54,539 nucleotides of DNA from a virus. The translations under genes and the position numbers were made by a program. The stretch is from IMG/VR virus record IMGVR_UViG_3300032214_000203, positions 1-54,539 of that record; one strand, 5' to 3'. Position 1 is the first letter of the stretch. The number at the start of each line of letters is the position of its first letter. This document shows, piece by piece, positions 23,985-37,992 of this stretch. The notes under the pieces are model-generated. The model ran no database searches, was not told where the DNA came from, and saw only the letters and a list, made by a program, of their open reading frames with translations.

Positions 23985-24386
23985 ATGGTGTACGAAGAGA
24001 TAACATTTACTATACTTGGTGAGCCAGCCTCTAAGGCCAACAGCCGAAAGGCCGTGATGTTTGGTAAGCGCCCTGCTTTTATCAAGTCGGACAAGGCGCG
24101 GGGGTATGTCAATGTGTTCGCAGCCCAGTGCCCCAAGCTTGCAGTGCCCTTCGAAGAAGATGTTCGCGTGGAGATGTTGATCTACTACGCATCCCGTCGC
24201 CCCGATCTGGACGAGAGCCTGATCCTCGACTGCATGCAGGGCCCGATCTACCTCAACGACAGGCAGGTCAAACAGAAGATGATCTACTGGGGTTTGGACA
24301 AGGCGAACCCACGCACAGTCATCAGGGTGAGTGCCGTCGAAAAAATTCCATCTCACCTATTACTAAAGCCGGAAGACGTTATGTAG
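23985..24386 (+). CDS. rusA: RusA-like Holliday junction resolvase
   Basis: 133 residues from an ATG with AGGGGT six bases upstream. RusA landmarks: FTILGEPASKANSRK (nucleic-acid-binding front), RRPDLDESLILDCMQG (the paired acidic residues) and IYLNDRQVKQK (third Asp). It resolves branched DNA made by recombination and replication. The last codons and the TAG stop are part of the first box of the repeated control module (24366-24418), so the module has overwritten or co-evolved with the gene end. Divergent to the exonuclease operon. Confidence 0.8.
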   Translation: MVYEEITFTILGEPASKANSRKAVMFGKRPAFIKSDKARGYVNVFAAQCPKLAVPFEEDVRVEMLIYYASRRPDLDESLILDCMQGPIYLNDRQVKQKMIYWGLDKANPRTVIRVSAVEKIPSHLLLKPEDVM

Positions 24387-24428
24387 ATTATCTATAAGTC
24401 GGAAGACGTAGTAGGTATATATATATAA
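24366..24428 (+). repeat. control module A: two CGGAAGACGT boxes 30 bp apart plus AT tail
   Basis: CGGAAGACGT at 24370-24379 and 24400-24409, followed by TAGGTATATATATATA. Over 53 bp (24366-24418) it is identical at 46 positions to module B at 37927-37979, in the same orientation, and both sit ahead of a rightward operon. No convincing -35/-10 pair was found in it; it may bind an activator or a phage-specific polymerase. Confidence 0.7.
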
Positions 24429-24490
24429 CTCTAAGTATAAGGCGAGATCGAACGACCTCGTTGACGGGCACCCCCAGCATCTCTTAGGAT

Positions 24491-24517
24491 GGTTCGGTCA
24501 GAGTTGGAGACCGAGCC
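24491..24517 (+). promoter_or_regulatory. translation-initiation hairpin abutting the primase-helicase start
   Basis: GGTTCGGTC and GACCGAGCC form a 9-bp stem (one G-T pair) around a 9-nt loop, ending at the base before the GTG start at 24518. The Shine-Dalgarno GGAG (24506-24509) lies at the loop/stem edge. Folding would limit ribosome access; a protein binding the loop could repress translation, as in known phage operators of this geometry (inference). Confidence 0.5.
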
Positions 24518-26299
24518 GTGCAAATCGAACAACAAGTTCGCGGCGAGGCATACAGATTAGGGTTAGGTCAGCACAAGATTAAGTGCCCTAGCTGTAGCCA
24601 CAGCCGTAAGAATAAAACCGATAGAACGCTCTCGCTCCGCATCGAACAAGACCGCATCCTGTATCAATGCTGGCACTGCCAGCAACAGGGCATTGTTCCG
24701 TTGCGTGAGGAGATGCCAGAGCCAAAGGTGATGCCTATGTCCGTCGCGAAGAATGTCGTTAAAGACCCACTGTCAGCCGAAGCCGTCGCATGGCTTAACG
24801 CCCGTGGCATATCGAGGGAGACCGCCGAGAAGGCTGGCGTATCTTCGACGCGCCATTGGGTGCAGGCACTTGGCAAGGAGACCGAGTGCATTCAGTTCTC
24901 CTACAAGAACAAGGGGCAAGAATACGCATACAAGATCAGGTCAATGGAGGGCAAAGGTTTCTCCTGCAATGGCGCACCGCAGACCTTCTTCAACATCGAG
25001 AGCGTGAAGCGCAACGATTGGATGATCATCTGCGAAGGCGAGATGGATGCGCTGGCATTCATGGAAGCCGGGTATGACAGCGTTGTTTCCGTCCCGAACG
25101 GCGCAGTGATGAAGGTTGTCGATGGGCAGATCGATCCCAAAGAAGACAACAAATTCAAGTTCTTATGGGAAGCGAAGAAGCAGATCGACAACGCCGCTCG
25201 CATTGTCATTGCCACTGATAGCGACGAGCCCGGTCAGGCGATGGCTGAGGAGATGGCCCGCCGCATTGGCAAGGATCGTTGCTGGAAGGTGGAGTTCCCT
25301 GCCGGGTGCAAGGATGCCAACGACGTGCTGATGTTGGCTGGCAAGGAAGGTGTCGATGGCATCGTTGTGAATTGCAAGCCGTGGCCTGTCGCTGGTCTTT
25401 ACGACGCCGAGCATTTCTATGAAGAGCTTGACGACATTTACGACAGGGGCATGGGGCGTGGCGAAAGCACAGGCTATGACAACGTGGATGAGTTCTACAG
25501 CGTGGTGACAGGGCAGCTTACAGTGGTCACCGGGCACCCGTCATCCGGCAAGTCAGAGTTCATTGACCAGATCATGGTCAACTTAGCGCAGTCAAAGGAT
25601 TGGAAGTTCGCCATCTGTTCTTTTGAAAACGAGCCGCGCCTGCATATTGCGAAGTTGATTAGCAAGTACCTACGCAGACCGTTCTTCGATGGGCCGAGTG
25701 GTCGAATGACCAAGGATGAATTGGATCGCGGCAAGGAATTTGTTCAGTCGCACTTTTCTTTTTTGTATCAGGCTGACGGCTCTCTCTCCTCAGTGGAGAG
25801 CATCATTGAGAGGCTGAAGGTTGCAGTTCTGCGGCACGGTGTGCGCGGCGCGATCATCGACCCCTACAACTACATCCAGAAGGGCCGCGATGTCAGTGAG
25901 ACGGATTGGGTGTCTGATGTCCTGACCAAGCTGCGCGTCTTTGCTCAGGCACACGGCATCCACCTGTGGTTCGTGGCACACCCGACGAAGATGATGCGCG
26001 ATCAAAGCGGCAAGGTGCCAGCACCGAAGGGGTACGACATCTCTGGCTCTGCGGCATGGTTTGCCAAGGCAGACATTGGCCTGACTGTTCACAGGCCCGA
26101 CCCCGCTAACTCCATCAGTTCAGAGATACACATCTGGAAGTGCCGCTTCTCATGGGTCGGCAAGCAGGGGCAGGCTGAGTTGGACTTCGATGTTCCGACC
26201 TCGACGTATAAGGGGCACGTCCCCGATCCGTTCTTGGATACAGCTATCGTGGTGCCCAGACCTTTGAGTTACAAAGATGACGACGACTTCCCATTCTAG
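24518..26299 (+). CDS. primase-helicase (T7 gp4/Twinkle-like)
   Basis: A 593-residue protein with three parts. Zinc ribbon: C23-P-S-C26 and C51-W-H-C54. TOPRIM primase core: IICEGEMDALAF (E173) and ATDSDEPG (D234, D236). RecA/DnaB-like helicase: Walker A GHPSSGKSE (339-347, K345) and Walker B AIIDPYN (D448). It ends SYKDDDDFPF, a tip like that of SSB proteins. It primes and unwinds DNA at the fork. The GTG start lies at the foot of a hairpin, and the gene is downstream of control module A. No DNA polymerase gene is present nearby. Confidence 0.9.
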   Translation: MQIEQQVRGEAYRLGLGQHKIKCPSCSHSRKNKTDRTLSLRIEQDRILYQCWHCQQQGIVPLREEMPEPKVMPMSVAKNVVKDPLSAEAVAWLNARGISRETAEKAGVSSTRHWVQALGKETECIQFSYKNKGQEYAYKIRSMEGKGFSCNGAPQTFFNIESVKRNDWMIICEGEMDALAFMEAGYDSVVSVPNGAVMKVVDGQIDPKEDNKFKFLWEAKKQIDNAARIVIATDSDEPGQAMAEEMARRIGKDRCWKVEFPAGCKDANDVLMLAGKEGVDGIVVNCKPWPVAGLYDAEHFYEELDDIYDRGMGRGESTGYDNVDEFYSVVTGQLTVVTGHPSSGKSEFIDQIMVNLAQSKDWKFAICSFENEPRLHIAKLISKYLRRPFFDGPSGRMTKDELDRGKEFVQSHFSFLYQADGSLSSVESIIERLKVAVLRHGVRGAIIDPYNYIQKGRDVSETDWVSDVLTKLRVFAQAHGIHLWFVAHPTKMMRDQSGKVPAPKGYDISGSAAWFAKADIGLTVHRPDPANSISSEIHIWKCRFSWVGKQGQAELDFDVPTSTYKGHVPDPFLDTAIVVPRPLSYKDDDDFPF

Positions 26300-26447
26300 A
26301 ACGCTGATCACTGTCAGAACCCACGCAGATGGAGTTGTTCTGTTTGTGTGGGTTGATGGCAAAGAGGTGGCGCAGGTGGTGATGGATGCGCCACACTACC
26401 TTAACCACATCCATGAGATATGCAGCGCAGCAAGACTCAATTGTTGA
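26277..26447 (+). CDS. small overlapping protein after the primase-helicase
   Basis: A 56-residue frame starting in another frame 22 nt before the helicase stop (MTTTSHSRTLITVRTHADGV and on, ending SAARLNC). The ITVRTHADGVVLFVWVDGKE part looks like a beta-hairpin module. The RBS is weak, so expression would depend on coupling. It is the last gene before the terminator at 26544. Function unknown. Confidence 0.55.
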   Translation: MTTTSHSRTLITVRTHADGVVLFVWVDGKEVAQVVMDAPHYLNHIHEICSAARLNC

Positions 26448-26543
26448 CCGCAATAAATTGCGCTGCTACATGTTGTGCCAGACAGCCATTGGCACACAGT
26501 GCTTGGTGCGTCTCCGCTCTGACCGTTCGTAGAACACACCTAG

Positions 26544-26571
26544 TGGGTGGCTTTTTAGCCACCCATTTTTT
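26544..26571 (+). terminator. rho-independent terminator of the RusA/primase-helicase operon
   Basis: TGGGTGGCT and AGCCACCCA form a perfect 9-bp stem with a TTTT loop, followed by TTTTTT. It faces rightward transcription and lies exactly at the convergent junction with the leftward accessory operon. Confidence 0.9.
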
Positions 26572-26773
26572 AATGGTGCGTTGAGTTCGCGGCCTCTGCT
26601 TCTGCCCTACTCATCTCATTGAGAATAAGCCCAACTGATGTTGCGATAATTGGCCAGTCTTCTCTAAAAGAGTACACCTCCACCGTTCCGACAAACAGTT
26701 TTATGATGTCAGCCGCCCACATTTTTTGGGGGAGTGAGGCTATGATCTTTTCGATTTCGTCTTGGTCGTTCAT
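26570..26773 (-). CDS. small protein, unknown
   Basis: A 67-residue acidic protein (MNDQDEIEKIIASLPQ at the front, IIATSVGLILNEMSRAEAEA towards the end). It is the last gene of the long leftward operon and its stop touches the terminator of the opposing operon. No motif recognised; the hydrophobic IIATSVGLIL is too short and mixed to be a clear membrane span. Confidence 0.55.
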   Translation of the reverse strand: MNDQDEIEKIIASLPQKMWAADIIKLFVGTVEVYSFREDWPIIATSVGLILNEMSRAEAEAANSTHH

Positions 26774-26794
26774 GGCAAGATCACCTTTCCTGTT

Positions 26795-27553
26795 TCAATC
26801 AAGGCCAAGCAGTGCATCCGTTACCTCCTTCTTTATGCGGCGGCGAAGCAGGCTCTCCGCCTTGGCAAAGTCTTTGTTGAGTGCAGTGATGCGCCTGTTG
26901 CCGTTGTCCCAGCACATTACCCATCCTTCGTGCAGAACCGGAACACCGCCCGTGCCTGTCATGGTGATGCAGTTGTAAGCCCGCACATCATCCGCACGAA
27001 GGCGATCTAGCTTGCGCTCACTGGCGCGAAGGATCAGGTGGGTCTTGTCTCCATCAGATACGGTAGAAATTCCCCTGTTATAAACGCTCCTGATCCATGT
27101 CAGTGGGACATTTATCCTGTAGCTCTTACCAAAGTAGTGAGAGCTTTTCACATCGATGTATTCGTGGACGGACTTCTTGGCATGGATGCTATCCACCTTC
27201 ATCTTTGGAAAGCAACTGGCAACAAGCGACTTCATCCAGAGTTCGGTGCTTGCTTTGGCTTGCTCAAAAATTCCATCTTGTTTTCTGTTGATCAAGACGG
27301 CACGGCAGTTAGCGAGTTCTATATACGCCGCGTGGAGTGCGTTGTAGATGCCAGAATTAAAGGGATCACTCAGTATCCTTGCGAAGTCCGGCACCCCATG
27401 TGGTGGGGGAGTGCCATATTTATATTGATTTGGGTCTCTGCAGAAAGTCTTGCGTTGTTCTGGCGTGAAGTGCAGCATCTTGAACGTCTGGTCGAGATAG
27501 TATCCTGCCATTTTTGATCGCGCGTAGATGGCGCGTGTGTCCATGTTTTTCAT
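26795..27553 (-). CDS. unknown 252-residue phage protein
   Basis: 252 residues, basic overall, from an ATG preceded by GGAG at 7 nt. Features: an N-terminal charged region (MDTRAIYARSKMAGYYLDQ), a mid Trp/Tyr-containing region (VHEYIDVKSSHYFGKSYRIN), and a Lys/Arg-rich helical C-terminus (FAKAESLLRRRIKKEVTDAL). A TMTGTGGVPVLHEGWVMCW strand-turn segment suggests a beta domain. No known family recognised. It has its own upstream gap with a palindrome (27570) and a possible folded RNA, so it may be regulated separately. Confidence 0.6.
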   Translation of the reverse strand: MKNMDTRAIYARSKMAGYYLDQTFKMLHFTPEQRKTFCRDPNQYKYGTPPPHGVPDFARILSDPFNSGIYNALHAAYIELANCRAVLINRKQDGIFEQAKASTELWMKSLVASCFPKMKVDSIHAKKSVHEYIDVKSSHYFGKSYRINVPLTWIRSVYNRGISTVSDGDKTHLILRASERKLDRLRADDVRAYNCITMTGTGGVPVLHEGWVMCWDNGNRRITALNKDFAKAESLLRRRIKKEVTDALLGLD

Positions 27554-27569
27554 TTCCGATCTCCGATTT

Positions 27570-27581
27570 GTTCGTTTGAAC
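27570..27581. promoter_or_regulatory. GTTC-N4-GAAC palindrome before the 252-residue gene
   Basis: Perfect palindrome GTTCGTTTGAAC followed by TTTT on the plus strand, 17 bp upstream of the leftward start at 27553, where a repressor would block the leader or RBS region. Confidence 0.5.
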
Positions 27582-27641
27582 TTTTGTTATTGTTCTGCAC
27601 CCGCCAAAAGCGAGCGCCTGATATATTGATTGAGTGATTGC

Positions 27642-27716
27642 GAGGGGCACGATGGTGGATGATGAGCCGTAGCGCAGTCTGATCTTCGACCAACACAAAG
27701 CCTGTGTGCGCCCCTC
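27642..27716 (-). ncRNA. possible folded RNA, tRNA-sized
   Basis: On the leftward transcript, GAGGGGC and GCCCCTC close a 75-nt unit (7-bp stem) that holds a small hairpin ACAC-AGGCTTT-GTGT and a second weak hairpin around GGTC/GACT. The size and closing stem recall a tRNA, but there is no T-arm and no proper anticodon loop. It lies in the gap between two leftward genes. Confidence 0.25.
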
Positions 27717-27734
27717 ATGGACTAGGCTATCGCC

Positions 27735-28043
27735 TCAACCCATTGCTTGCAACCGTTTCTGTTCTTCTAATTTCTTCAAGGCGCGCTCGACCGAAGCCTT
27801 GCTGGCCGACAGCTTCACCTTCTTGGGCGGCTGGTATGGCTCAATCTTATCGACCCATACACGTTCCGGTGCGGTAAGCGGCTTGCCGAATGTCATGAGC
27901 GGCAGCACAATTCCGAACCGTTCGCATGCAGCCTCGATACTTTTTCTGTGGAAGCCAAAGTGTTTACTTGCCTGCCCTGCATTCCAGCGTTTAGCCAGTG
28001 CGCTCTCCATCATATCGCGCGTTATAATCCTGCGGCCATTCAT
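27735..28043 (-). CDS. helix-turn-helix protein
   Basis: 102 residues from an ATG with AAAGGAG upstream. The segment LAKRWNAGQASKHFGFHRKS then IEAACERFGI reads as a helix-turn-helix; the C-terminal part is Lys-rich (KKVKLSASKASVERALKKLEE). A small DNA-binding regulator is likely. Its first 53 nt overlap the end of the upstream gene in another frame, unusually long for this operon where overlaps are 1-8 nt; an internal Met-Met at residues 11-12 would shorten the overlap but lacks an RBS. Confidence 0.55.
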   Translation of the reverse strand: MNGRRIITRDMMESALAKRWNAGQASKHFGFHRKSIEAACERFGIVLPLMTFGKPLTAPERVWVDKIEPYQPPKKVKLSASKASVERALKKLEEQKRLQAMG

Positions 28044-28206
28044 TCTCGGCTCTCCTTTTGATGGTCTCGATTTCAGGCAATCTCTGCCTAGCCATATACT
28101 CTATCAGCTCAAAGTCTGATTGCTGAACCCACCAACCCGGCAGCTTGACGTAGCCTGCTTCACGCAGGGCGCGGGCCGCAGGGCTATCGCTGGATGCTCG
28201 GCTCAT
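27991..28206 (-). CDS. small protein, unknown
   Basis: 71 residues, starting inside the stop of the preceding gene (TGATG). The core GYVKLPGWWVQQSDFELIEYM is aromatic and could be a compact winged or helical domain. No family recognised. The 3' end overlaps the HTH gene by 53 nt. Confidence 0.55.
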   Translation of the reverse strand: MSRASSDSPAARALREAGYVKLPGWWVQQSDFELIEYMARQRLPEIETIKRRAENEWPQDYNARYDGERTG

Positions 28207-28379
28207 CAGTCGCTGTCCGTTGTGATTTCGTAAGCCACGAGATGCAGAACACCAACGGCGGCGGCGAGGGGCATTCGTCCGCTATACTCATAGATCAGGG
28301 CTTTGATGCGGTCGCCCAGTTCCCCGGTCACGTCCTCGGCCCGCTTGCCGTCGCCCTTAAAGATGCGGATGTCACTCAT
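28206..28379 (-). CDS. 57-residue protein, unknown
   Basis: A frame of 57 residues (MSDIRIFKGDGKRAEDVTGE at the front; PLAAAVGVLHLVAYEITTDS at the end) linked to both neighbours by overlapping start and stop codons and preceded by AAGGAGGT. The C-terminal half forms a hydrophobic helix, possibly buried rather than membrane-spanning. Function unknown. Confidence 0.6.
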   Translation of the reverse strand: MSDIRIFKGDGKRAEDVTGELGDRIKALIYEYSGRMPLAAAVGVLHLVAYEITTDSD

Positions 28380-28563
28380 GGGGCACCTCCTTCACATTCG
28401 CCCGCAGATACAGCTTCTTGGCCCCTGCCCCGCAGGTCGGGCATTTGGTTTCCCGCACCAGCTTGGACAGCTTCCGCGCATCCATCGGGAACAACGGCCC
28501 TGCGGAGAAGCCTGTGGCGCACTCGCCGCAACGGAAGTGCAGGCGCTTGTCTAGGTCAGTCAT
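28372..28563 (-). CDS. zinc-ribbon protein
   Basis: 63 residues from an ATG after GGAG. FRCGECATGF and TKCPTCGAGAKKLYL give two CxxC pairs about 30 residues apart, a classic zinc ribbon. Such small proteins are common in phage accessory operons; the target is unknown. The start overlaps the upstream stop, and the shared upstream junction is a 30-bp repeat (28569-28598). Confidence 0.65.
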   Translation of the reverse strand: MTDLDKRLHFRCGECATGFSAGPLFPMDARKLSKLVRETKCPTCGAGAKKLYLRANVKEVPHE

Positions 28564-28795
28564 GGGTGTCTCCTTTGATCTCTGCGAGGGTGGCGCGGCG
28601 GTGATGCCACCAATCGTTGTATTTTGGTGTGCCGTGTCGAAAGGGGCATTCCTCAAGGGCCAGCCCCACCGCCTTCGCCAGTTTGGCAGTCAGGGCTTCG
28701 ATGCGGTCGGCGGATTGGCGGCACCAATCGCAGGCCATCTCTTTGGTCGCATGTAGTGGATAGCCGCACGCGCCACAGCATTTTTCGTCAGTCAT
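28556..28795 (-). CDS. Cys-rich small protein, unknown
   Basis: 79 residues with CCGACGYPL and CDWC near the N-terminus (two CxxC-type knuckles), a central helix, then ECPFRHGTPKYNDWW. It ends RATLAEIKGDTHD. Nearly the same ending (RATLAEIKGESHE) closes the protein at 29130-29309, because both gene ends lie in an identical 30-bp DNA repeat. GGAGGT is present upstream. Confidence 0.6.
   Translation of the reverse strand: MTDEKCCGACGYPLHATKEMACDWCRQSADRIEALTAKLAKAVGLALEECPFRHGTPKYNDWWHHRRATLAEIKGDTHD
28569..28598. repeat. 30-bp gene-junction repeat, copy 1
   Basis: Identical over 30 bp to 29143-29172. It encodes the last residues of the leftward gene (ATLAEIKG) plus the RBS GGAG of the next gene. 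Confidence 0.8.
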
Positions 28796-28970
28796 CGTCC
28801 ACCTCCATCATCTGCTTCACCAGTGCTGGCACCTTGCGCCACTTGTACAGGCTTGAGACACCGACGCGGTGCGTCTCAGCCGCATGCTGCACGCCGAAAC
28901 GCTCGGCATCCTGCAAGGCGGCAAGGCGCAGGCAATCCGTCAGCCCGTAGTCTGGATGCAGCCCGGTCAT
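28788..28970 (-). CDS. small helix-turn-helix protein
   Basis: 60 residues from an ATG preceded by GGGGAG. AERFGVQHAAETHRVGVSSL followed by YKWRK is a helix-turn-helix of the homeodomain/transposase-N-terminal type. It could be a regulator or a remnant DNA-binding module. It overlaps both neighbours by a few nt. A second candidate binder for the repeated palindromes. Confidence 0.6.
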   Translation of the reverse strand: MTGLHPDYGLTDCLRLAALQDAERFGVQHAAETHRVGVSSLYKWRKVPALVKQMMEVDDD

Positions 28971-29524: not shown

Positions 29525-29547
29525 CTCTCTCCTCATGATGGTCATTG

Positions 29548-30675
29548 TTATGCTGCCTTCAGGTAGGTCGTCTCACCCCAAGGCGCTGCTGTTGCGTGGC
29601 TCCAACTCGACACCCACAATGTCGGATAGCTGGGTTCCTCTTCAGGATAATCCCAAACTTGCAGGTCACTCAAGTAAACCATGTTGTCCACCTCTAGCTC
29701 GTTATCTTCGATGTACTGGAACACGGGCGAGACCATCGTGCCGCCGCGACCGCCGACGTGTATCTCATCGATCACCTCGCCGCGCTCATAGCGCCGCACT
29801 GTCCGCACCTTTGTGTCGCAGGTGATGACCGTGACCGACGCTGGCATGATGTCCTCGCTGATCGCGTTCAACTCGCCAAGAAACTGTGTCAGTTCGCCAT
29901 GCGACACCGACCCGCTGGTGTCTATGCCGATCACCACGTTGCCAGCGCCGATCCTCTGGATTGAAGGCGCGACGATGCCAGCCATGTGATACATCGCACG
30001 CTGCGGTCGGCGCATGCTGTAGTCGTCGGGTTGGTCGCCACCAATGAACCGCCGCATGACATCACGCCAATCAACCTGCGCCTTCTTCATTTGCTGGATC
30101 ATCTGATCGATCTTGAGTGGCAGCTTGCCGACAGCCTTGGCTGCGTTCGCCGCCATCATGACCTTGCTGTCGATGCTGGCTTCCATCTGCTGCTGTTCAG
30201 CGTTCGACAGTTCCTTCCCGCTCTTGCCCTTGGCATCGACCACCTCGCCAAAGCCACTGCCCTTTGCCTTCTCGCCTATGTTCTCAGGCAGTCGGTCGTA
30301 AGCAGCCTCGGCGCTGAGGTCTTTGTATTGCTCATCCATCAGCGCACCCATTGGCAGGATGAACCCACCCTCGAACAGGATGGGGTTGATGACGTAGTCG
30401 CAGGCATAGTTCCAACGCTCAGGATCACGCAGCCCACGCCGCAGCATGTGCTTCATCACGATGTGCATGACCTCATGTGCCAGCACGCCAATGCATTCGT
30501 CTGGCGTCATCCGATCCACGAAGTCGGGCGACCACATGATGGACAGCCCGTCCGTACACATTGTCGGGATGGTCGGATCAGGTGAGACCTTCACCGACAG
30601 GCACAACGATCCAAAGAACGGGTGCCGCACCACCAACTGGGTGATGGCACGGGACATCTTCATTTGTGCGTCCAT
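29548..30675 (-). CDS. VWA-domain protein with DUF2201-like metallopeptidase N-domain
   Basis: 375 residues from the ATG 4-9 nt after GGAGG. The N-terminal part has the DUF2201 pattern: HEVMH (67-71), an Arg/Gly turn, then WNYACDYVIN (D93). A Lys/Gln linker leads to a VWA domain with a complete MIDAS: DTSGS (D252, S254, S256), T313 in GGRGGT, and D337 in YLSDLQ. Proteins of this kind work with MoxR ATPases, whose gene is immediately upstream here. The pair may remodel or mature metal- or cofactor-dependent target proteins; the phage target is unknown. A palindrome (30691) and a hairpin terminator separate it from the ATPase gene, so it may be controlled on its own. Confidence 0.8.
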   Translation of the reverse strand: MDAQMKMSRAITQLVVRHPFFGSLCLSVKVSPDPTIPTMCTDGLSIMWSPDFVDRMTPDECIGVLAHEVMHIVMKHMLRRGLRDPERWNYACDYVINPILFEGGFILPMGALMDEQYKDLSAEAAYDRLPENIGEKAKGSGFGEVVDAKGKSGKELSNAEQQQMEASIDSKVMMAANAAKAVGKLPLKIDQMIQQMKKAQVDWRDVMRRFIGGDQPDDYSMRRPQRAMYHMAGIVAPSIQRIGAGNVVIGIDTSGSVSHGELTQFLGELNAISEDIMPASVTVITCDTKVRTVRRYERGEVIDEIHVGGRGGTMVSPVFQYIEDNELEVDNMVYLSDLQVWDYPEEEPSYPTLWVSSWSHATAAPWGETTYLKAA

Positions 30676-30690
30676 GTTTTCCTCCAAAAA

Positions 30691-30702
30691 GTTCAAGTGA
30701 AC
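30691..30702. promoter_or_regulatory. GTTC-N4-GAAC palindrome before the VWA gene
   Basis: Perfect palindrome; on the leftward strand it reads GTTCACTTGAACTTTTT, running straight into the GGAGG RBS of the VWA gene. Confidence 0.55.
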
Positions 30703-30748
30703 TAAAAACCCCGTAGATTTTGCTAGCAAATTTCATTCGGGGTTTAGT
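30701..30748 (-). terminator. hairpin terminator between ATPase and VWA genes
   Basis: On the leftward strand AAACCCCG pairs with CGGGGTTT, followed by TTAG; the loop holds a second palindrome TTTGCTAGCAAA. It begins a few bases after the ATPase stop. The plus strand also has a T-rich 3' side (TTTAGTTTTG), so it may act in both directions. It would reduce read-through into the VWA gene. Confidence 0.6.
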
Positions 30749-30753
30749 TTTGT

Positions 30754-31773
30754 TTACAGGATCAGGTTCTTGCCCACGGTCATGATCCAATCGCGCACAG
30801 GATCGACCTGCTTCAGTGACTTGTCGCGCGACAGTGCATCCTTGACCACGAAGGCAGCGAACTCTTGCTGCGGCAGGCGCATCAGGTACTTGATCACGTT
30901 GCCTGCGTTCTTGGGGTTCATCTTCACCGACAGCGCAGCGCAGATGGCGTACATCACAGCCGGGTCTTGGCTGATCATGGCCCCCATTGGGTTGGCAATC
31001 AGTTCGTCCATGTCCGGCACGATGCTGTACATCTCAATGAACCCTGTGAAGTCAGCCGTTGCACCGCGCCCGACCTGACCCGCCAGTGCCTCGCGTTCGT
31101 TCACCGGGCTGAGGCCCCATGACATGATCGATGCCACCCGTTCCCACGAACGTGGCGATGGGCATGCGTTCGCGTCACGGTCGAACTTGTGCAGCCACTC
31201 GGGGCGGAAGCGAAGGAAGGCACACACCCGCTCGTCGATCTTCTTGTTGTAGAAGTACTGGATGGTGTCTTCGAGGTCGGCCTCGACCTCAAGGAACATC
31301 AGGCGATCCTTGAGGTGGGACGGCATGGTGTTGGTGCCCGCACGATCTGAGGTGCGGTTGCCAGCGGCGACGATCACCCACCCCTCGGGCAGTTGATGCG
31401 GGCCGACCCGGCGTTCGTTGACGATCTGCGCCGCGATGTTCTGGTTCGCGGTCGGTGCCTGAGGCAGTTCGTCGAGGAACATAACGCCTTTGCCCTCGGT
31501 CGGCATCCAATCAGGGCGCATGCGGATCATGCTCTCGCCGTCCTTTGATGGGACAGGCCAGCCGCCCAGTTCGCCAGCGTCGTACTGTGCCAGCGACAGG
31601 ATGCTGCACTGCATGTCCATGCTTGCCGCCACATCCTTGACAACAGTTGTCTTGCCTAGGCCAGCGCCACCGATCAGGTAGGGCACAACGTACTGCGCAT
31701 CGCGTGCGTTCTTCAGGCTAAGGGCGTGGGTGATGGCCTTCTCGACAATGGCCTGTGCTTGGGAAAGTTTCAT
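30754..31773 (-). CDS. MoxR-family AAA+ ATPase
   Basis: 339 residues with Walker A GGAGLGKTT (35-43, K41), Walker B VMFLDEL (D101, E102), sensor-1 region IVAAGNR (N139) and a candidate arginine finger in HLKDRLMF (R157). The architecture is that of MoxR-type AAA+ chaperones (RavA, NorQ, CbbQ relatives). These form rings and act with VWA partners; the next gene encodes one. Its ATG overlaps the upstream stop and has GGAG. A palindromic hairpin terminator follows the stop. Confidence 0.85.
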   Translation of the reverse strand: MKLSQAQAIVEKAITHALSLKNARDAQYVVPYLIGGAGLGKTTVVKDVAASMDMQCSILSLAQYDAGELGGWPVPSKDGESMIRMRPDWMPTEGKGVMFLDELPQAPTANQNIAAQIVNERRVGPHQLPEGWVIVAAGNRTSDRAGTNTMPSHLKDRLMFLEVEADLEDTIQYFYNKKIDERVCAFLRFRPEWLHKFDRDANACPSPRSWERVASIMSWGLSPVNEREALAGQVGRGATADFTGFIEMYSIVPDMDELIANPMGAMISQDPAVMYAICAALSVKMNPKNAGNVIKYLMRLPQQEFAAFVVKDALSRDKSLKQVDPVRDWIMTVGKNLIL

Positions 31774-32129
31774 TGGTCGTTCTCCATTTCTCTGATGATC
31801 TTGTTAATTTGTTGGTCGATCCGCTCTTGGTCTTGGCGGATGCTGACGTGGAAGGATTTGTTTTCGAGCATGGCGCGTTGCTCTCGCAGCGCCACAACGC
31901 GCGGGTCTTTGTCGGCCAGTGCCTTTTGCTGCGCGAAGCGGCGGGACGTGCGGACGCTGGCATGCGCGTCTTTCATGGCGCGGGACAGGTCTTGCCTGCT
32001 GACGTGACCGAAATCTCGACGCGACCACTTGTCTTGCGCGATCCACAGCCAAGCGAGGCGCATCGCTGCGCCTTTTGACGAGAAGTCCATGGTCTGGCTT
32101 TGCAGGCGTGTGATCGTTTCAAGCTTCAT
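31770..32129 (-). CDS. helical basic protein upstream of the AAA+ ATPase
   Basis: 119 residues (MKLETITRLQSQTMDFSSKG at the front), very rich in Arg/Lys/Gln, with a long predicted coiled coil in its second half (ALREQRAMLENKSFHVSIRQ, then QERIDQQINKIIREME). Coupled on both sides (TAATG and ATGA). It could be an adaptor for the ATPase, by position only. Confidence 0.55.
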   Translation of the reverse strand: MKLETITRLQSQTMDFSSKGAAMRLAWLWIAQDKWSRRDFGHVSRQDLSRAMKDAHASVRTSRRFAQQKALADKDPRVVALREQRAMLENKSFHVSIRQDQERIDQQINKIIREMENDQ

Positions 32130-32671
32130 TACAGGCTCCAATTGTTCAGGCAGATAGGCCCGATCCCAAGTTCGATAGACACCGGGTCGGTCAGTGGCCG
32201 ACCACAGCATGAGCATTGCCCGGTCAGCTTGCCGTGCTTGACGGCCTCACCTTTCGGGTCACGCGCCACAGCGACAACGTTGTCAGGCACGTCAGAGGCA
32301 CAGGTCTTGGCAGGCACGAACATGCTGCCCACGATCTTGCCTTGATAGTCCGGGCCGCGCTTGACGTAGACAGCGCCAGCGTTCTTGCCGTTGGTGGGTG
32401 CCAGCGAAAAGGACAGGGCCGCAGCGCGGAACACGGGCTTCTTCACCTTGGCGTGCAGGAGCAGGTCTTTGATGCGCGACACATCGACGGCCCGCGTCAT
32501 GTCCTGCTTCTGCGTTGCTGTCTGCTTGACCTTCAGGATCATGCGCTCGGCTGCGTCCCACTGGCGCTCCGACAGTTCGCCCTTGCGCTGGTACTGCAAC
32601 AGCAGGCTGTGGGCGAAATCGTTCCACTCGATCATGGGCTTCAGCGCCTCGACGATCTCTTCGTATTCCAT
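32129..32671 (-). CDS. DUF6011-like zinc-knuckle protein
   Basis: 180 residues. The C-terminal GQCSCCGRPLTDPVSIELGI followed by GPIC is the DUF6011 signature: CxxC, then a lone Cys, with a conserved GR-LTD and GIGP. The middle (GAVYVKRGPDYQGKIVGSMF) resembles the beta-rich domain that often precedes DUF6011 in phage proteins. Function unknown; zinc binding is likely. GGAG precedes the ATG, which overlaps the upstream stop. Confidence 0.65.
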   Translation of the reverse strand: MEYEEIVEALKPMIEWNDFAHSLLLQYQRKGELSERQWDAAERMILKVKQTATQKQDMTRAVDVSRIKDLLLHAKVKKPVFRAAALSFSLAPTNGKNAGAVYVKRGPDYQGKIVGSMFVPAKTCASDVPDNVVAVARDPKGEAVKHGKLTGQCSCCGRPLTDPVSIELGIGPICLNNWSL

Positions 32672-32799
32672 CACACGCGCTCCTTATGTGCCTGCAGTTC
32701 GCGCAGGATGTTGACAAGGGCCAAGGCGTGCCCGCCGTTCTGGATGGCGTCACGCGCGATCAACTCGATCTGATCGAGCGTCTTCTGCATCTGTTCCAT
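32671..32799 (-). CDS. 42-residue helical peptide, unknown
   Basis: A frame of 42 residues (MEQMQKTLDQIELIARDAIQ and on) with GGGAG six bases before the ATG and a stop overlapping the next start (TGATG). It is predicted to be one or two amphipathic helices. The palindrome at 32816-32827 lies 17 bp upstream, the same distance as for the gene starting at 27553. Confidence 0.5.
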   Translation of the reverse strand: MEQMQKTLDQIELIARDAIQNGGHALALVNILRELQAHKERV

Positions 32800-32815
32800 T
32801 TCGATCTCCCGTTTA

Positions 32816-32827: not shown

Positions 32828-32830
32828 TTT

Positions 32831-32920: not shown

Positions 32921-33255
32921 GCGAACACCCCCTCTTCTTCGCAGGCCTTGAACAGCGCGCCGATCTCCTCGCCGGAGAACCGCTTGCCCTTGCTGTTCAT
33001 GGGGTAGGTGCGGATCACGCTGCTACCCTGCGTCGTGACGTGCTTGAAGGTCACGGGCTTGCCAGCTTTCTTCATGGCCAGCATGAACACCCCAATGTCG
33101 ATGTCTTCTTCGAGGAAGACAGTCGGCTTGTAGTTCTTGACGACAGCGTAGCTAAACCGCGACACGTCTTCGAGCGTCACACCGACGCCCAGCATGTCCT
33201 GATACGGCACCTCAAGCCAGCCGTGGCCGTCGTCGTGGTGGAACGTGTAGGTCAT
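32917..33255 (-). CDS. small protein, unknown
   Basis: 112 residues starting at the second Met (GGAG 8 nt before it). Front: TYTFHHDDGHGWLEVP, then MLGVGVTLEDVSRFSYAVV and a FLEEDIDIGVFMLAMKKAG stretch. It reads as a compact alpha/beta domain and resembles an unannotated phage family seen in early operons. The previous gene's stop overlaps the alternative upstream ATG. Confidence 0.6.
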   Translation of the reverse strand: MTYTFHHDDGHGWLEVPYQDMLGVGVTLEDVSRFSYAVVKNYKPTVFLEEDIDIGVFMLAMKKAGKPVTFKHVTTQGSSVIRTYPMNSKGKRFSGEEIGALFKACEEEGVFA

Positions 33256-33257
33256 GG

Positions 33258-33428
33258 TCATTTCTCCTTTTTCCCCCAGATCAGCACCTTGCCGATCACC
33301 TTCGACCGCAGGTCATCGCGGCCCAACAGTTCCTTGATGAAGTATTCTTCAAGGTCTTCGAAGCTTTCGAACTCGCAGCGGGTGTGTTCTTTCCCGTGCG
33401 CCTTGATCACAGTTTGTTTGATGAACAT
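33258..33428 (-). CDS. small protein, unknown
   Basis: 56 residues (MFIKQTVIKAHGKEHTRCEF and on), with AGGA 8 nt before the ATG. Alternating charged and hydrophobic residues suggest a small alpha/beta domain. No family recognised. Confidence 0.55.
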   Translation of the reverse strand: MFIKQTVIKAHGKEHTRCEFESFEDLEEYFIKELLGRDDLRSKVIGKVLIWGKKEK

Positions 33429-33450
33429 GTCACATCCTTTCTGTTCCATT

Positions 33451-33484
33451 GGATGCTGGCCCTGCAGGGCCAGACACCGATAGA
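33451..33484 (-). repeat. intergenic hairpin H1 with covarying partner
   Basis: CTGGCCCTGCAGGGCCAG (33456-33473), a perfect inverted repeat flanked by GGAT and ACACCG, lies 11 nt past the stop of the 226-residue gene. The same element with compensatory stem changes is at 34211-34244. No T-run follows, so it is not an ordinary terminator. Confidence 0.6.
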
Positions 33485-34165
33485 TCAGAACTCGCCCAGC
33501 CCCTCGGCCACAAAGGCAGAGACCGCAGCGTCCACGGTTTCATTCTCGGCACCCGCGCCAGCCTGTGCCGCCTTGGCAGCATCGCTGTTGCGGTAGGCAC
33601 GACGCGCCGCCATCAACTCGCGCATCGCGTTCTGGAACTCGTCCAGTTCCTCGTCGCTCAGGCCGTCCTTGAAGACGTTGCCCTGCACGACCTTGCCGTC
33701 TTCGTCCTTGGCGCTCGACCACTTGCCGACCACCTGTTCGGCCAGCATCTGGGCCTTGGACTTCTCAGCCTCGCCCTTCACGGCCTTGGCCAGCTTGTTC
33801 TCGCTGTCGATGCCGCTGCCGTCCAAGAACTCGCGCACCATCTGGGGGGTCGCGTTGGACATCCCGCCCAGATCGAACAGGCGCACAGCACCCACGCTGT
33901 TTTCAATGTAACGCTTGGCGGTTGCCTCCTTCAGGCCCGCCTCTTCAAGCAGGGCGGAGCGCAGTGCCTTGCTGACGGCGCGGGGCAGGTTGCCCTTGAC
34001 CAGCTTGACCGGGGCGATGCTGGCGATCAACTCGCAGTAGGCACCGATCTTGCGGCTGTTGGCGACTTCGTTGTTCGCCTTGTTGTCGGCCTTGAGGCCA
34101 GCGATCTCGGCCTCGGCGGCGTTGATCACATTGATGGTTTCGTCGGCAATAATGAACTTAGACAT
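33485..34165 (-). CDS. 226-residue helical protein, unknown
   Basis: 226 residues from the ATG after GGAGG. Mostly helical and Ala/Glu/Lys-rich: MSKFIIADETINVINAAEAE, then VKLVKGNLPRAVSKALRSAL, LKEATAKRYIENSVGAV, and an acidic C-terminus (LSDEELDEFQNAMREL ... FVAEGLGEF). It could be a nucleic-acid-associated or oligomeric structural protein, but no family is recognised. Hairpin repeats bracket it on both sides (33451 and 34211). Confidence 0.55.
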   Translation of the reverse strand: MSKFIIADETINVINAAEAEIAGLKADNKANNEVANSRKIGAYCELIASIAPVKLVKGNLPRAVSKALRSALLEEAGLKEATAKRYIENSVGAVRLFDLGGMSNATPQMVREFLDGSGIDSENKLAKAVKGEAEKSKAQMLAEQVVGKWSSAKDEDGKVVQGNVFKDGLSDEELDEFQNAMRELMAARRAYRNSDAAKAAQAGAGAENETVDAAVSAFVAEGLGEF

Positions 34166-34210
34166 CTGGGTTCCTCCATCTGGCTGTCTATGTTGTCGAG
34201 GTGATCCTCG

Positions 34211-34244
34211 GGATACCAGCCCCGCAGGGCTGGACACCGGAAGT
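34211..34244 (-). repeat. intergenic hairpin H2 with covarying partner
   Basis: CCAGCCC (34216-34222) pairs with GGGCTGG (34227-34233), flanked by GGAT and ACACCG, again 11 nt past a stop codon. Two of the seven pairs differ from H1 and both stay paired. Confidence 0.6.
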
Positions 34245-34688
34245 TCACGCTGCCACGGGCAGGGCGTTGGGGCGCTGGCAGGCGATCTGCTTTGCCATGA
34301 CGCTGAAGGCGAGGGCTGCATGTTTCGGCAGCGAAGCCCAGCCAAAGCTGCAGCACACCGACACGCCGTCTTGGCTGACCACCACATCGCCGACCGACAT
34401 CGAACGCAGGCCCTTGCAGTGGTAGATGGGCTGGACACCCGTGTCGAACGGCGCGCCGTTGTCGTAGTCGAACACGGCATCCACGCTGCGGGCCTCAACC
34501 GTCAGGCCGTGGTGGTACAGGCCGACCAGCGCAGCGCACATGACGTGCATGGGCATCTCGGGGTTGTCACCCTTTGCGAAGGTGAGGCGACTGTAGGTGA
34601 TGCTCTCCGGCGAAGCGTTCCATCCCTTGGCGTTGATGGCAGCGGAAACGGCGTCGGACAGGTGCAGTTTGTAGACGTGGTAAAGCAT
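34245..34688 (-). CDS. YodL-like domain protein candidate
   Basis: 147 residues with GGAGG upstream. The region VDAVFDYDNGAPFDTG followed by LRSMSVGDVVVSQDGVSVC and a FGWASL segment resembles the YodL-like domain, in which an RS(L/M)SVGDVV strand pair precedes an aromatic Gly turn; that domain is found in polyvalent and accessory phage proteins. Role unknown. Confidence 0.5.
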   Translation of the reverse strand: MLYHVYKLHLSDAVSAAINAKGWNASPESITYSRLTFAKGDNPEMPMHVMCAALVGLYHHGLTVEARSVDAVFDYDNGAPFDTGVQPIYHCKGLRSMSVGDVVVSQDGVSVCCSFGWASLPKHAALAFSVMAKQIACQRPNALPVAA

Positions 34689-34689
34689 T

Positions 34690-34845
34690 TCAGGCCTCCT
34701 TATGGCTCAGTGCTTGGATCAAAATCGCGCTGTCTGCGGCGTTCAGCAGCAACTCGGCGAAGGGGTGTGTTTTGTGGTAGGCAGCAATGCGCTTGGCATT
34801 GGCGGCTGACGGGTCAGCGATGTAGAGGGCAAGCAGTGTGGACAT
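34690..34845 (-). CDS. 51-residue protein, unknown
   Basis: A frame of 51 residues (MSTLLALYIADPSAANAKRI and on, ending ALSHKEA), coupled to the upstream gene through TAATG and carrying the RBS of the next gene (AAGGAGG) in its last codons. Ala/Leu-rich helices, no motif. Confidence 0.55.
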   Translation of the reverse strand: MSTLLALYIADPSAANAKRIAAYHKTHPFAELLLNAADSAILIQALSHKEA

Positions 34846-35051
34846 TACCACGCCCCCATCATCTCGCTGCGATGCTCATCCAGCACCTTCACCACCCGCT
34901 TGCAGGCAGCGATGGCAGCCTTGGGCGTCTTGGCGCCGCCAATGGCAACGGCGATATCTTCATCACTCCAGCACTCGGCCAGAAAGTCCCAGCCGCCCTT
35001 GCCCCAATGGGCGTCGGCGTGGTCGCGAACAGCGCGGATCAGTTCATCCAT
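34845..35051 (-). CDS. small protein, unknown
   Basis: 68 residues (MDELIRAVRDHADAHWGKGG at the front) from an ATG after GGAG. WDFLAECWSDEDIAVAIGGA then TPKAAIAACKRVVKVLDEHR suggests a helical bundle. No family recognised. Confidence 0.55.
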   Translation of the reverse strand: MDELIRAVRDHADAHWGKGGWDFLAECWSDEDIAVAIGGAKTPKAAIAACKRVVKVLDEHRSEMMGAW

Positions 35052-35061
35052 GTCAGTCTCC

Positions 35062-35229
35062 TCAGTTCAGGGCGCAGTCGAGCATGATTGCCCGACGCTC
35101 AGCCTCGGCCAGCGACACACCAGCCTTGATTGCATAGGCCTCGATCAGGCCAGCGCAGCGATCAGCAGCGCCGGGATAGTTCGCTCGCAGGGTGCGGGCT
35201 GCATTCTCAAGGATCATCTTCGCAGTCAT
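35062..35229 (-). CDS. first gene of the long leftward operon, unknown
   Basis: 55 residues from the ATG after GGAGG (MTAKMILENAARTLRANYPG at the front). Helical, Ala-rich. It follows a leader of about 370 nt that holds an attenuator-like hairpin. Confidence 0.55.
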   Translation of the reverse strand: MTAKMILENAARTLRANYPGAADRCAGLIEAYAIKAGVSLAEAERRAIMLDCALN

Positions 35230-35259
35230 GGGATTTCCTCCAGTTGATTGAGCCACCAA

Positions 35260-35281
35260 AACGGCCCACCAAAGGGCCGTT
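35260..35281 (-). promoter_or_regulatory. leader hairpin (attenuator-like)
   Basis: AACGGCCC and GGGCCGTT form a perfect 8-bp stem with a 6-nt loop, 31 nt before the first gene of the leftward operon; on that strand it is followed by only four T, so a weak terminator or RNA-structure element. Confidence 0.45.
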
Positions 35282-35733
35282 CGAATTGTTCAATCATAAG
35301 CACCTCTGCCGTTCTCTGGGGATCAGGCCAGCGCAACGCTGAGCCATCCGACCCTTCCGATACCAGACCGTGTTTTAAGCGATCACCTGAGCATCAGTGC
35401 TGCACCCCGTTTGGTGGGAAGACCCCGCTTTGTGGGCCGACCAGACTGCCGGGCGAAAGCCCCTGTCCAATCCGCGCTAGGCGAGAACCTGATCCTGCTG
35501 GCCGTGCGAGGCCTTTATGTCAATTCCGCTGGATCGTGGCGGCGGTGCCGGGGTCAGGGTGGGGGGGCCAAGCGCCGCGCCGTCCCTTCCGACACCAATA
35601 GACTTATTCCCCTTTCACTCCCTTGTCAACACCTATGTTCCCTTGTTTACCCTTACATGCAGCATGGCAGAAAGCCCAATCATCACAGGGGTTTGGGATG
35701 GCAAAAAAGCCGGGAACGTGTAGGATGTTGAAA
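35282..35733. other. gene-free leader/control region of the leftward operon
   Basis: No convincing gene on either strand. It contains two near-copies of a 15-bp unit (ACCCCGTTTGGTGGG at 35404-35418 and ACCCCGCTTTGTGGG at 35422-35436), G/C-rich stretches able to fold, the possible leftward promoter at 35601-35629, and the palindrome just beyond at 35734. It probably acts as the divergent control region between the accessory operon and the small terminase gene. Confidence 0.5.
35601..35629 (-). promoter_or_regulatory. possible promoter for the leftward accessory operon
   Basis: On the minus strand a perfect TTGACA (35624-35629) stands 17 bp from TAAGTC (35601-35606), a poor -10. Supported mainly by position ahead of a 24-gene operon. 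Confidence 0.35.
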
Positions 35734-35745
35734 GTTCGTTGGAAC
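35734..35745. promoter_or_regulatory. GTTC-N4-GAAC palindrome before the small terminase gene
   Basis: Perfect palindrome GTTCGTTGGAAC followed by TTTTT, 109 bp before the terminase small subunit and in the divergent control region. Confidence 0.5.
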
Positions 35746-35854
35746 TTTTTCTGGCATCACGCTGGGGCCAGATCAGCCAAAACGAATCACCCCAAACATT
35801 CAGGGGGGTGAATGTATCAAACCCCGAAAGCCCAGCGCAGCGCAGGACAGATCG

Positions 35855-36412
35855 ATGACAGATAAACCCAAGCTCACAGTGGTAGGCGGATCAGGTGACA
35901 CCACAGGCACCAACACAGATGCCAAGACCCCAAGGGGAAGGGCATACAAAGGCCAGCCAAAGACAAGTGGCCCAAAGACGCCAGTGAACAGCGAAGGCCT
36001 CACAGCCAAGCAGGAGGCGTTCTGTCACGCTATCCTCGGCGGCAAGGGATGGAGTGACGCATACCGCGAGGCATACGATGCTGAGAACATGAGCGCCGCA
36101 AGCGTCCATCGCGAGGCATATGCACTGGCAACCAGCCCCAAGATTGCATCAAGGCTGGAGCGTGCAGAGAAGGAAAGACAGGCGGAACAGCGCATGCAGC
36201 GGCTCTCTCGAGCAGAGCGTGTCATTGAAAAGCTTGAAGGTATCGGTGTTCGGGGCGATGCTGCAGACGGCACACAGGTGCGGGCACTGGAACTGTTGGG
36301 CAAGACGCTGGGCCTGTTCGTTGACCGGGTCGAGACAGAGGATAAGACGCCGCGTGATGCAGACAGCATCCGTGCAGAACTGGAGCAGCGGATCAACAGG
36401 CTGATGGGTTAG
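35855..36412 (+). CDS. terS: terminase small subunit
   Basis: 185 residues. A basic, disordered front (residues 1-45) is followed by LTAKQEAFCHAILGGKGWSD, AYREAYDAENMSAASVHREA and a PKIASRLERA segment: the helix-turn-helix DNA-recognition part of small terminase proteins of the Terminase_2 type. A coiled-coil region and an acidic C-terminus follow. It recognises the packaging site, which could lie in the adjacent repeat-rich gap. It is separated from the large subunit by 1.7 kb and by two opposing genes, an unusual arrangement. The stop is 1 nt before an imperfect palindrome copy (36412-36423). Confidence 0.8.
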   Translation: MTDKPKLTVVGGSGDTTGTNTDAKTPRGRAYKGQPKTSGPKTPVNSEGLTAKQEAFCHAILGGKGWSDAYREAYDAENMSAASVHREAYALATSPKIASRLERAEKERQAEQRMQRLSRAERVIEKLEGIGVRGDAADGTQVRALELLGKTLGLFVDRVETEDKTPRDADSIRAELEQRINRLMG

Positions 36413-36431
36413 TTCAATTGCACTTCTGGCA

Positions 36432-36454
36432 GGGGGGGGTCTTGGCGGGGGGGG
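36432..36454 (+). other. paired G8 tracts
   Basis: Two runs of eight G separated by TCTTGGC. They could form a G-quadruplex or slip during replication; they are also positions where read errors are likely. Confidence 0.5.
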
Positions 36455-36728
36455 TGTCCTTTATTCCCGCAGCCTTCAAACGCGGGCCGTACAGTGGCGG
36501 TGTGTGCTGTCGGGTAGGGTGACCGCCGACACCATAGACTTGGGCCTCTAGCGGGCAGCACAGCGCGTCTGCGGTGCATCTGCTTGCCATGTGCTGCACA
36601 TCCAGCCATCCACACGGTGCAGCGGCGTCAGGACGGTCGGCCCACGACGGAAACGGCCATGGTGCGACCCCCACCTACCCCCATCCCCCCTGACTGCGGG
36701 CTGGCCGACAGCCGAGACATACATGATA

Positions 36729-36750
36729 TTCCGCTCAAACAATTAGCAAA
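36729..36750. repeat. 22-bp direct repeat, copy 1
   Basis: Begins TTCCGCTCAA and ends CAATTAGCAAA; one mismatch to copy 2. A partial copy (TTCCGCT) follows at 36927-36933. Iteron-like. Confidence 0.75.
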
Positions 36751-36770
36751 CCGCTAGAAAACCCTTCTTC

Positions 36771-36792
36771 TTCCGCTCAAGCAATTAGCAAA
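36771..36792. repeat. 22-bp direct repeat, copy 2
   Basis: Same unit as 36729-36750 with A to G at one position, 42 bp downstream (four helical turns). Confidence 0.75.
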
Positions 36793-36974
36793 TTCTCACA
36801 AAACCCCCTACCCCCCCTCTTTTTTTCCACTACTCAACCGGAGATAGGTAAAAACCCGGAAAAACACCAGACATGCCTAGGAATCCTACACCCCCCGGTA
36901 GTATTTCTGGCTAAGATTCAGAACTGTTCCGCTATTTCTTTGAACTTTTCACACAAAGCGTGTCGTCTGGGATT

Positions 36975-37035
36975 ACCCGCCAACGCAACTGCGAATGTGT
37001 AACGGCTACAGGTCTGGGAGGCGGGTGTTTTTTTT
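36975..37035 (+). terminator. terminator-like structure after the small terminase region
   Basis: ACCCGCC (36975-36981) pairs with GGCGGGT (37020-37026), followed by eight T. The loop is long (38 nt) but contains a small hairpin. It faces the opposing gene that ends at 37080. Confidence 0.5.
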
Positions 37036-37079
37036 GTTTTGACCCTACGACGTTGGGTGCCGTGCGTGAGATGCGCGGT

Positions 37080-37544
37080 TTACCAGTTCCCTCTGGCTTT
37101 TCCGATGAAGTAGACGGCGGCCACGAGGATGGCGACGGCGCAGATTGAGGCGGCTATGCCGACGCTCCAGAGGATCACGGCCTCTTTGATCTCCGCTCTG
37201 CGGTATTCGGTCTCTTGGCGCTGTTTGCGGACGCGCCGTATGGTTTCTTTGTACTCTTCTAGACCGTCATGGCCGTATGTGTAGCCAATCATTGTCTCAA
37301 CGTCCTTCTTCATCTGCTGCACCTTCTTCTGTGCAGCGAAGATGTTCATGGCTTCTTCTTCGGCGGAGCCACCGAACTTCCACCATGGTGGGTTTTGGGC
37401 TTTTTCTGCGGCGTAGTTGATGTCCGCGTAGGCACCCGCGAACTTCGACATGGCTTGGGTTGCGTCACGCCCTGCGGATATGAGCGACTGGATGTTTGAC
37501 ACGGCACCTGCCGCGATGGAAAGGGCGGTAAACGGGTCGATCAT
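37080..37544 (-). CDS. C-terminal-TM protein near terminase, unknown
   Basis: 154 residues from the ATG after GGAG. The front MIDPFTALSIAAGAVSNIQS, the middle AQNPPWWKFGGSAEEEAMNI and the coiled coil KKVQQMKKDVETMIGYTYG recall a family I know from aquatic phages, of unknown role. A C-terminal transmembrane helix (ILWSVGIAASICAVAILVAA) ends in a short basic tail. Coupled to the upstream gene (AATGA). Confidence 0.65.
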   Translation of the reverse strand: MIDPFTALSIAAGAVSNIQSLISAGRDATQAMSKFAGAYADINYAAEKAQNPPWWKFGGSAEEEAMNIFAAQKKVQQMKKDVETMIGYTYGHDGLEEYKETIRRVRKQRQETEYRRAEIKEAVILWSVGIAASICAVAILVAAVYFIGKARGNW

Positions 37545-37702
37545 TTTGATATTCTCCGAACGAGCGGGCATGCGCTGAATGGCTTTTGGACGAAGCTATG
37601 GTGGGTGCCGTCAGGTGAGGTGTACCTGCATATCTGAACGAAGGTGTTGCGACCTTCGAGCCAGAGATGTGTGAAAGATACAAAGATCAGGACGACTTCC
37701 AT
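37541..37702 (-). CDS. 53-residue protein with hydrophobic front, unknown
   Basis: 53 residues from the ATG after GGGAG: MEVVLIFVSFTHLWLEGRNT, then FVQICRYTSPDGTHHSF and a short basic end. The hydrophobic front could be a signal anchor. The stop overlaps the next start, which supports both genes being real. Confidence 0.55.
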   Translation of the reverse strand: MEVVLIFVSFTHLWLEGRNTFVQICRYTSPDGTHHSFVQKPFSACPLVRRISK

Positions 37703-37826
37703 GGCGGTTCTCCCGCCTGAGTCTCCCGCCTCAGACATGAAAATCTATACACGAATCGAGCCCTTTGCTCAACACGGTGCCAGACATGAGATGCCACAAT
37801 GTCGTGTGACAAGACTCTTTCCGATT

Positions 37827-37857
37827 AGGTTAACGGAGGAGGTAGCGCCGTTAACCT
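37827..37857. promoter_or_regulatory. AGGTTAACGG inverted repeat
   Basis: AGGTTAACGG and CCGTTAACCT form a perfect 10-bp inverted repeat with an 11-nt spacer, then TTTT. It could be a terminator or a protein-binding site in the control region ahead of the large terminase. Confidence 0.5.
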
Positions 37858-37874
37858 TTTAGAGTCCGTAAGAA

Positions 37875-37886
37875 GTTCTCTTGAAC
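37875..37886. promoter_or_regulatory. GTTC-N4-GAAC palindrome before the late operon
   Basis: Perfect palindrome GTTCTCTTGAAC plus TTTT, 41 bp upstream of module B and 232 bp before the large terminase. Confidence 0.55.
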
Positions 37887-37926
37887 TTTTCTCGCGCACA
37901 CGCGCGAACGACGTATAGACGTTAAG

Positions 37927-37992
37927 GAGTCGGAAGACGTTATGTATAGTGTATATAAGTCGGAAGACGTAATAGGTATTATATATATATAC
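37927..37992 (+). repeat. control module B: two CGGAAGACGT boxes 30 bp apart plus AT tail
   Basis: CGGAAGACGT at 37931-37940 and 37961-37970, then TAGGTATTATATATATATA. It matches module A at 46 of 53 positions. An alternating GC stretch (CGCGCGCGCG) flanked by an imperfect inverted repeat follows at about 37991-38015. It lies upstream of the whole late operon, 126 bp before the terminase start. Confidence 0.7.

Follow-up and report, generated by a model that had tools for sequence, protein, structure and literature searches.

In 54,539 nucleotides of DNA from an uncultured marine phage (IMG/VR viral metagenome record IMGVR_UViG_3300032214_000203, positions 1 to 54,539; this whole stretch is the window), two similar modules, A and B, lie ahead of the replication and late operons. 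Our analysis points to modules A and B being a pair of iteron-type replication origins, or an origin together with a fork-stalling site or late origin, resembling oriL and oriR of phage SPP1; we give this reading about an even chance. The two 53-bp copies (24366-24418 and 37927-37979) are identical at 46 of 53 positions and lie 13,550 bp apart. Each holds the box CGGAAGACGT twice on the plus strand with a spacing of 30 bp; TAGGTAT and an AT run come next. A and B are identical at all 20 box positions, and four of the seven mismatch columns (0, 3, 20, 22, 24, 26 and 45) fall in mid-spacer. The only other exact CGGAAGACGT in the window is a single copy at 9353, on the minus strand within an open reading frame. 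Module A contains the stop codon of rusA (24384-24386) and precedes the primase-helicase gene, whereas module B precedes the terminase gene (terL), which is followed by portal and head genes. The initial annotation had described the twin copies, their box spacing, the overlap with rusA and their place before the two operons, all of which we reproduced; its aside that the AT-rich parts may matter for replication has become our leading explanation.

We gathered relatives from IMG/VR by terminase (80) and by primase (80), several of them partial contigs, and compared modules in the 13 genomes that hold both genes, the window included. The closest cultured or named phages (HTVC027P, HTVC023P, DSL-LC04 and 023Pt_psg01) have terminases only about 50-58% identical. 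An AT-rich module was present upstream of both the primase and the terminase operon in 13 of 13 genomes; relatives keep the architecture and not the box sequence. The window, G022, G035, G031 and G012 carry GGWAGAC boxes, and G030 carries GGTATA boxes. G006 and G047 have hairpins of CT/GA or C/G type (CTCTCTC/GAGAGAG or CCCCCC/GGGGGGG with AT flanks), G026 and G050 have AT sequence only, and G055 and G049 have repeats of GTACATA or ACTAGTTATAA. Across 2.9 million viral contigs, the exact twin box was found only in the close relatives L006 and L007, three other matching contigs being unrelated coding repeats; we therefore rejected the exact motif as a widespread phage promoter.

Despite this divergence between lineages, the two sites within a genome resemble each other. 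When each genome was searched with the module from before its primase, and self-palindromic matches within the module were ignored, the best second match lay upstream of terL in the window and in ten relatives (G022, G035, G031, G006, G047, G050, G026, G030, G055 and G049); in G012 the terL-side match was weak by BLAST and clear by box content. In box-type genomes, clusters of several boxes beside AT tracts occurred exactly twice per genome, before primase and terL only. We then counted shared 8-mers with at least two G/C letters between modules whose boundaries were set by hand around stability minima and boxes. The diagonal reached 138, compared with 96 for the best of 20,000 permutations, with AT-only genomes adding zero by construction. 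When one genome per lineage was used (nine representatives), the mean number of shared k-mers was 11.9 within a genome versus 0.78 between genomes. The site-to-site distance was 11.0-14.5 kb in 12 relatives, the value for G035 assuming a circular record.

The module can also change on an otherwise constant backbone. L006 and L008 encode terminases identical to that of the window over 502 residues, and at the same spot upstream of terL, L006 has twin boxes and L008 a CT/GA hairpin, with both flanks in common. About 200 bp have therefore been exchanged without the neighbouring genes. Downstream, TATATATACTATTACGCGCGCGCG and the transcript leader are unchanged between the two, and TATATATACTATTACGCGCGCGCG is retained in other relatives whose upstream part was exchanged, with a single base differing in L011.

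We ranked all 40-bp stretches of each genome by nearest-neighbour energies, a computed property. In the window, module B was the least stable stretch and module A the second. The two modules were likewise the two least stable stretches in 12 of 13 genomes, with G006 (ranks 1 and 3) as the exception, in a test run without a positive control. Ranks 1 and 2 held in 11-12 of 13 genomes when the stretch length was set between 30 and 100 bp. In the outgroups HTVC027P and 023Pt_psg01, the minima were weaker and lay elsewhere in the genome.

Box gaps in the box-type relatives were 11-12, 20-21 and 30 bp, corresponding to about one, two and three DNA turns, and these gaps stayed fixed while the length of the AT tract varied. 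Judged from sequence, this phasing fits a protein bound to one helix face. Origins of the lambda O-protein type likewise have iterons spaced by about 20 bp beside an AT-rich tract, near helicase-loading genes; lambda has a single origin inside the O gene, whereas the present modules occur in two essentially intergenic copies. We propose that a binding protein would sit on the phased boxes and melt the adjoining AT tract. Bound at module A, it would load the primase-helicase, whose gene adjoins the module; module B, ahead of the terminase, would serve as a late origin or as a barrier to forks. Module B could thereby feed recombination-dependent concatemer synthesis through the phage exonuclease, Sak annealing protein and RusA resolvase. 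On this proposal, A and B change together because both must answer the same protein, and each lineage would therefore have its own box sequence at both places.

The closest parallel is SPP1 oriL/oriR with gp38 (G38P). The SPP1 genome has a pair of origins separated by about 12-13 kb, each comprising direct repeats and an AT-rich DNA-unwinding element, one beside the replication genes and the other intergenic in the late region (PMC6316719, PMC3485210). The origin-binding protein on the second site has been proposed to stall forks, whereupon resolvase, exonuclease and annealing protein start concatemer synthesis in a theta-to-sigma switch (PMC6316719, PMC3485210). Such paired origins, with a theta start at one site and a possible concatemer trigger at the other, are described mainly from SPP1. 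The window likewise has paired similar sites at a comparable distance, direct repeats with an AT-rich tract (some relatives having hairpins or AT sequence only), and genes for an exonuclease, an annealing protein and a Holliday junction resolvase beside module A. We favour origins because these recombination genes, the 13.55-kb pairing and the packaging gene adjoining module B parallel SPP1. The two systems also differ: SPP1 oriL lies inside the initiator gene, whereas module A is flanked by rusA and by the gene for a fused primase-helicase, and here the box sequence, and even the module type (hairpin or AT-only), varies between close relatives. A second parallel is found in the PLE satellites of Vibrio cholerae, in which related elements exchange the origin jointly with the RepA_N type and iterons covary with the cognate initiator domain (PMC8263062). 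Origin type is exchanged between related backbones in both cases; each PLE element is described with one origin, whereas the present phages change two sites jointly and yielded no cognate initiator.

As an alternative, the modules could be a shared transcription-factor site, with a phage or host regulator on phased boxes at two divergent control regions switching early to late expression. The AT tract of module B would then supply the late promoter -10 (TATACT), and module A would act on the primase promoter from upstream, as an enhancer or repressor site. We regard this account as tenable but doubtful, and we keep it at that level because module B leads into a candidate -10 that is conserved and a leader with two covarying hairpins. 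The hairpins of this terL leader are kept across relatives, with two-sided compensatory changes in 14 of 21 pairs, and the TATATATACTATTACGCGCGCGCG core survives the upstream exchange between L006 and L008. Leftward promoters near both modules would also suit divergent control: one on the minus strand at 23973-23944 came from the promoter scan, and one upstream of module B was read by eye, its counterpart in L010 and L012 being TTGAGG-N17-TATAAC. Since promoter-like sigma-70 sites were no more frequent in the scan than in shuffled sequence, the weight of these calls rests on conservation. The initial annotation had reported no ordinary -35/-10, which is wrong for module A: TTGACG-N18-TAGGAT lies just downstream and recurs in relatives, where TTGACT-N17-TATGAT takes its place. 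For module B the statement conflicts only with the leftward TTGAGC-N17-TATAGA seen by eye, and the scan showed no sigma-70 -35 for the late operon.

Phased boxes suit cooperative activators, and late promoters of the P2 Ogr and Mu C type have activator boxes upstream of late operons without a good -35. These promoters have a set spacing from box to -10, however, whereas across relatives the last box lies 28, 34, 36, 39 or 42-53 bp from the terL-side landmark and 48-60 bp from the primase -35. This drift argues against a polymerase contact at a set place. The proposal that same-face spacing marks an activator or promoter is supported for the helical phasing, which is kept in relatives, and unsupported for an activated promoter of fixed geometry. 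In the lineages examined, moreover, a conserved sigma-70 promoter belonging to the primase stands between the module and that gene, module orientation is not kept in G030 and G055, where the module before the primase is inverted with respect to that before terL, and a promoter need not be one of two global stability minima. Module B may nevertheless have a role in transcription. Both activities could also be combined if module B were a late promoter fused to a late origin, with initiator binding coupling replication to late transcription. Such a fusion would agree with the leader and the conserved -10 core at B on the one side and with the stability minima and origin-like pairing on the other; it is the least parsimonious reading, with both activities predicted from sequence, and we think it quite unlikely.

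Terminators, recombination sites or packaging sites (pac/res) are highly improbable. Hairpin-type relatives do look like bidirectional terminators, recombination could take place between direct repeats separated by 13.5 kb, and site B adjoins terL. Box-type modules, however, lack a U tract, many relatives have a leftward gene beginning immediately upstream of site B, which leaves no rightward transcript to stop, the two sites of G034 differ in type and could not recombine together, and a pac site is not needed before primase. An RNA element was likewise rejected: the modules had no family match in Rfam, a tRNA search found none, and module B folded no better than shuffled RNA (z = -0.79).

Several observations weigh against the paired-origin reading. 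No initiator or origin-binding protein was found among the proteins scanned by family or fold, nor was a counterpart of SPP1 gp38/gp39. Iterons are not visible in lineages of the hairpin and AT types, and G034 is mosaic, its terL site being a hairpin while its primase site has boxes. AT-rich promoters would score low in stability too, and module B, with its conserved candidate -10 and structured leader, is probably at least partly a promoter region. GC skew tracks gene direction and gives no independent origin signal. The window may also be circularly permuted, so its ends are not necessarily true ends.

Candidates for the binding protein were considered individually. The hypervariable protein encoded at 26795-27553 stands beside primase in nearly all relatives, with a mean identity of 0.32. 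It was rejected because its variation did not follow module type (a same-type pair had an identity of 0.41 and a different-type pair 0.42). Its AlphaFold model was confident (predicted local distance difference test score 88), with no family match and no PDB match with E below 0.001. An AlpA-like helix-turn-helix protein was set aside since its recognition region was similar in a box-type and an AT-type genome and different between two box-type genomes. When gene content was sorted by module type, the clearest gene was that of a DUF6011 protein (32129-32674), but two hairpin-type genomes have it, so it is not diagnostic. No phage RNA polymerase gene was seen among the proteins scanned, which did not include every open reading frame. 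The failure to find a binder could mean that it is not among the proteins examined, that it comes from the host, or that the function depends on melting and structure more than on a specific sequence. A host assignment through GTDB was discarded as unreliable, as it yielded only two environmental metagenome-assembled contigs (Flavobacteriaceae and Porticoccaceae bins).

Table 1 Features in and around modules A and B of the window.
Feature	Position	Strand	Basis
AlpA/HTH_17-like small DNA-binding protein, fast-changing recognition region	20589-20789		homologs in long relative genomes
Sak single-strand annealing protein	22286..23026	-	PF06378
Exonuclease (PD-(D/E)XK-like)	23019..23954	-	phrog_2139
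RusA-like Holliday junction resolvase	23964..24386	+	PF05866, phrog_140
Imperfect inverted repeat ATCTCACCTATTACT / AGTATAAGGCGAGAT around module A	24350..24448	.	sequence; RNA fold z = -2.65
Module A (oriL-like position), twin boxes and AT tract, between rusA and primase-helicase gene	24366..24440	+	sequence; stability rank 2
Box A1 CGGAAGACGT	24370..24379	+	
Box A2 CGGAAGACGT, 30 bp from A1	24400..24409	+	
AGTAGGTAT and AT tract of module A, putative DNA-unwinding element	24410..24440	+	sequence, stability
Primase sigma-70 promoter TTGACG-N18-TAGGAT	24461-24490	+	promoter scan; conserved position in relatives
Primase-helicase (Toprim + DnaB_C)	24518..26299	+	
Leftward operon promoter, sigma-70-like, TTGAGC-N17-TATAGA, upstream of module B	37744..37772	-	read by eye; absent from scan list
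Dispersed palindrome copy AAGTTCNNNNGAACTTTT, upstream of module B	37873..37890	.	
Module B (oriR-like position), twin boxes and AT tract, ahead of terminase/late operon	37927..37997	+	sequence; stability rank 1
Box B1 CGGAAGACGT	37931..37940	+	
Box B2 CGGAAGACGT, 30 bp from B1	37961..37970	+	
AATAGGTAT and AT tract of module B, including TATACT (37988-37993), candidate late -10	37971..37997	+	alignment of relatives
Two-hairpin leader of terL mRNA	38031..38099	+	fold z = -4.0; covariation
Terminase large subunit (terL), gene 1 of late operon	38118..39626	+	

The window also contains a dispersed palindrome, GTTC-N4-GAAC (consensus AAAAGTTCAATTGAACTTTT), in 13 copies compared with 0.9 expected (3521, 5603, 12637, 21050, 27570, 30691, 31140, 32816, 35734, 37875, 42773, 45687 and 49271), several of them near gene boundaries. 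Other related genomes examined have 3-19 copies, and HTVC027P and 023Pt_psg01 have none. This palindrome could be a stoperator-like or terminator element. Elsewhere, an AAA/MoxR-like ATPase is encoded beside a DUF2201 metallopeptidase/VWA-like protein (29548-31773), the latter labelled HNH endonuclease in PHROGs, and the gene of an RCC1-repeat protein (53085-54461) has DNA repeats of 150 bp.

Taken further, the paired-origin reading would describe a lineage of uncultured marine phages with exchangeable paired replicon cassettes. Both sites would switch type together (direct-repeat, hairpin or AT-only) on near-identical backbones, giving the phages replicon types much as plasmids have incompatibility groups, and the terminase site would couple a late origin to a late promoter. 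We consider this extended scheme speculative and rather unlikely to hold in full. If the modules are origins of the SPP1 kind, their design is found again in a large lineage of uncultured marine phages, whose origin sequences turn over rapidly and in concert. These phages would then offer a natural series for studying shifts in the specificity of an origin and of the protein that binds it, and phage origins might be predicted from sequence as two global stability minima that match each other.

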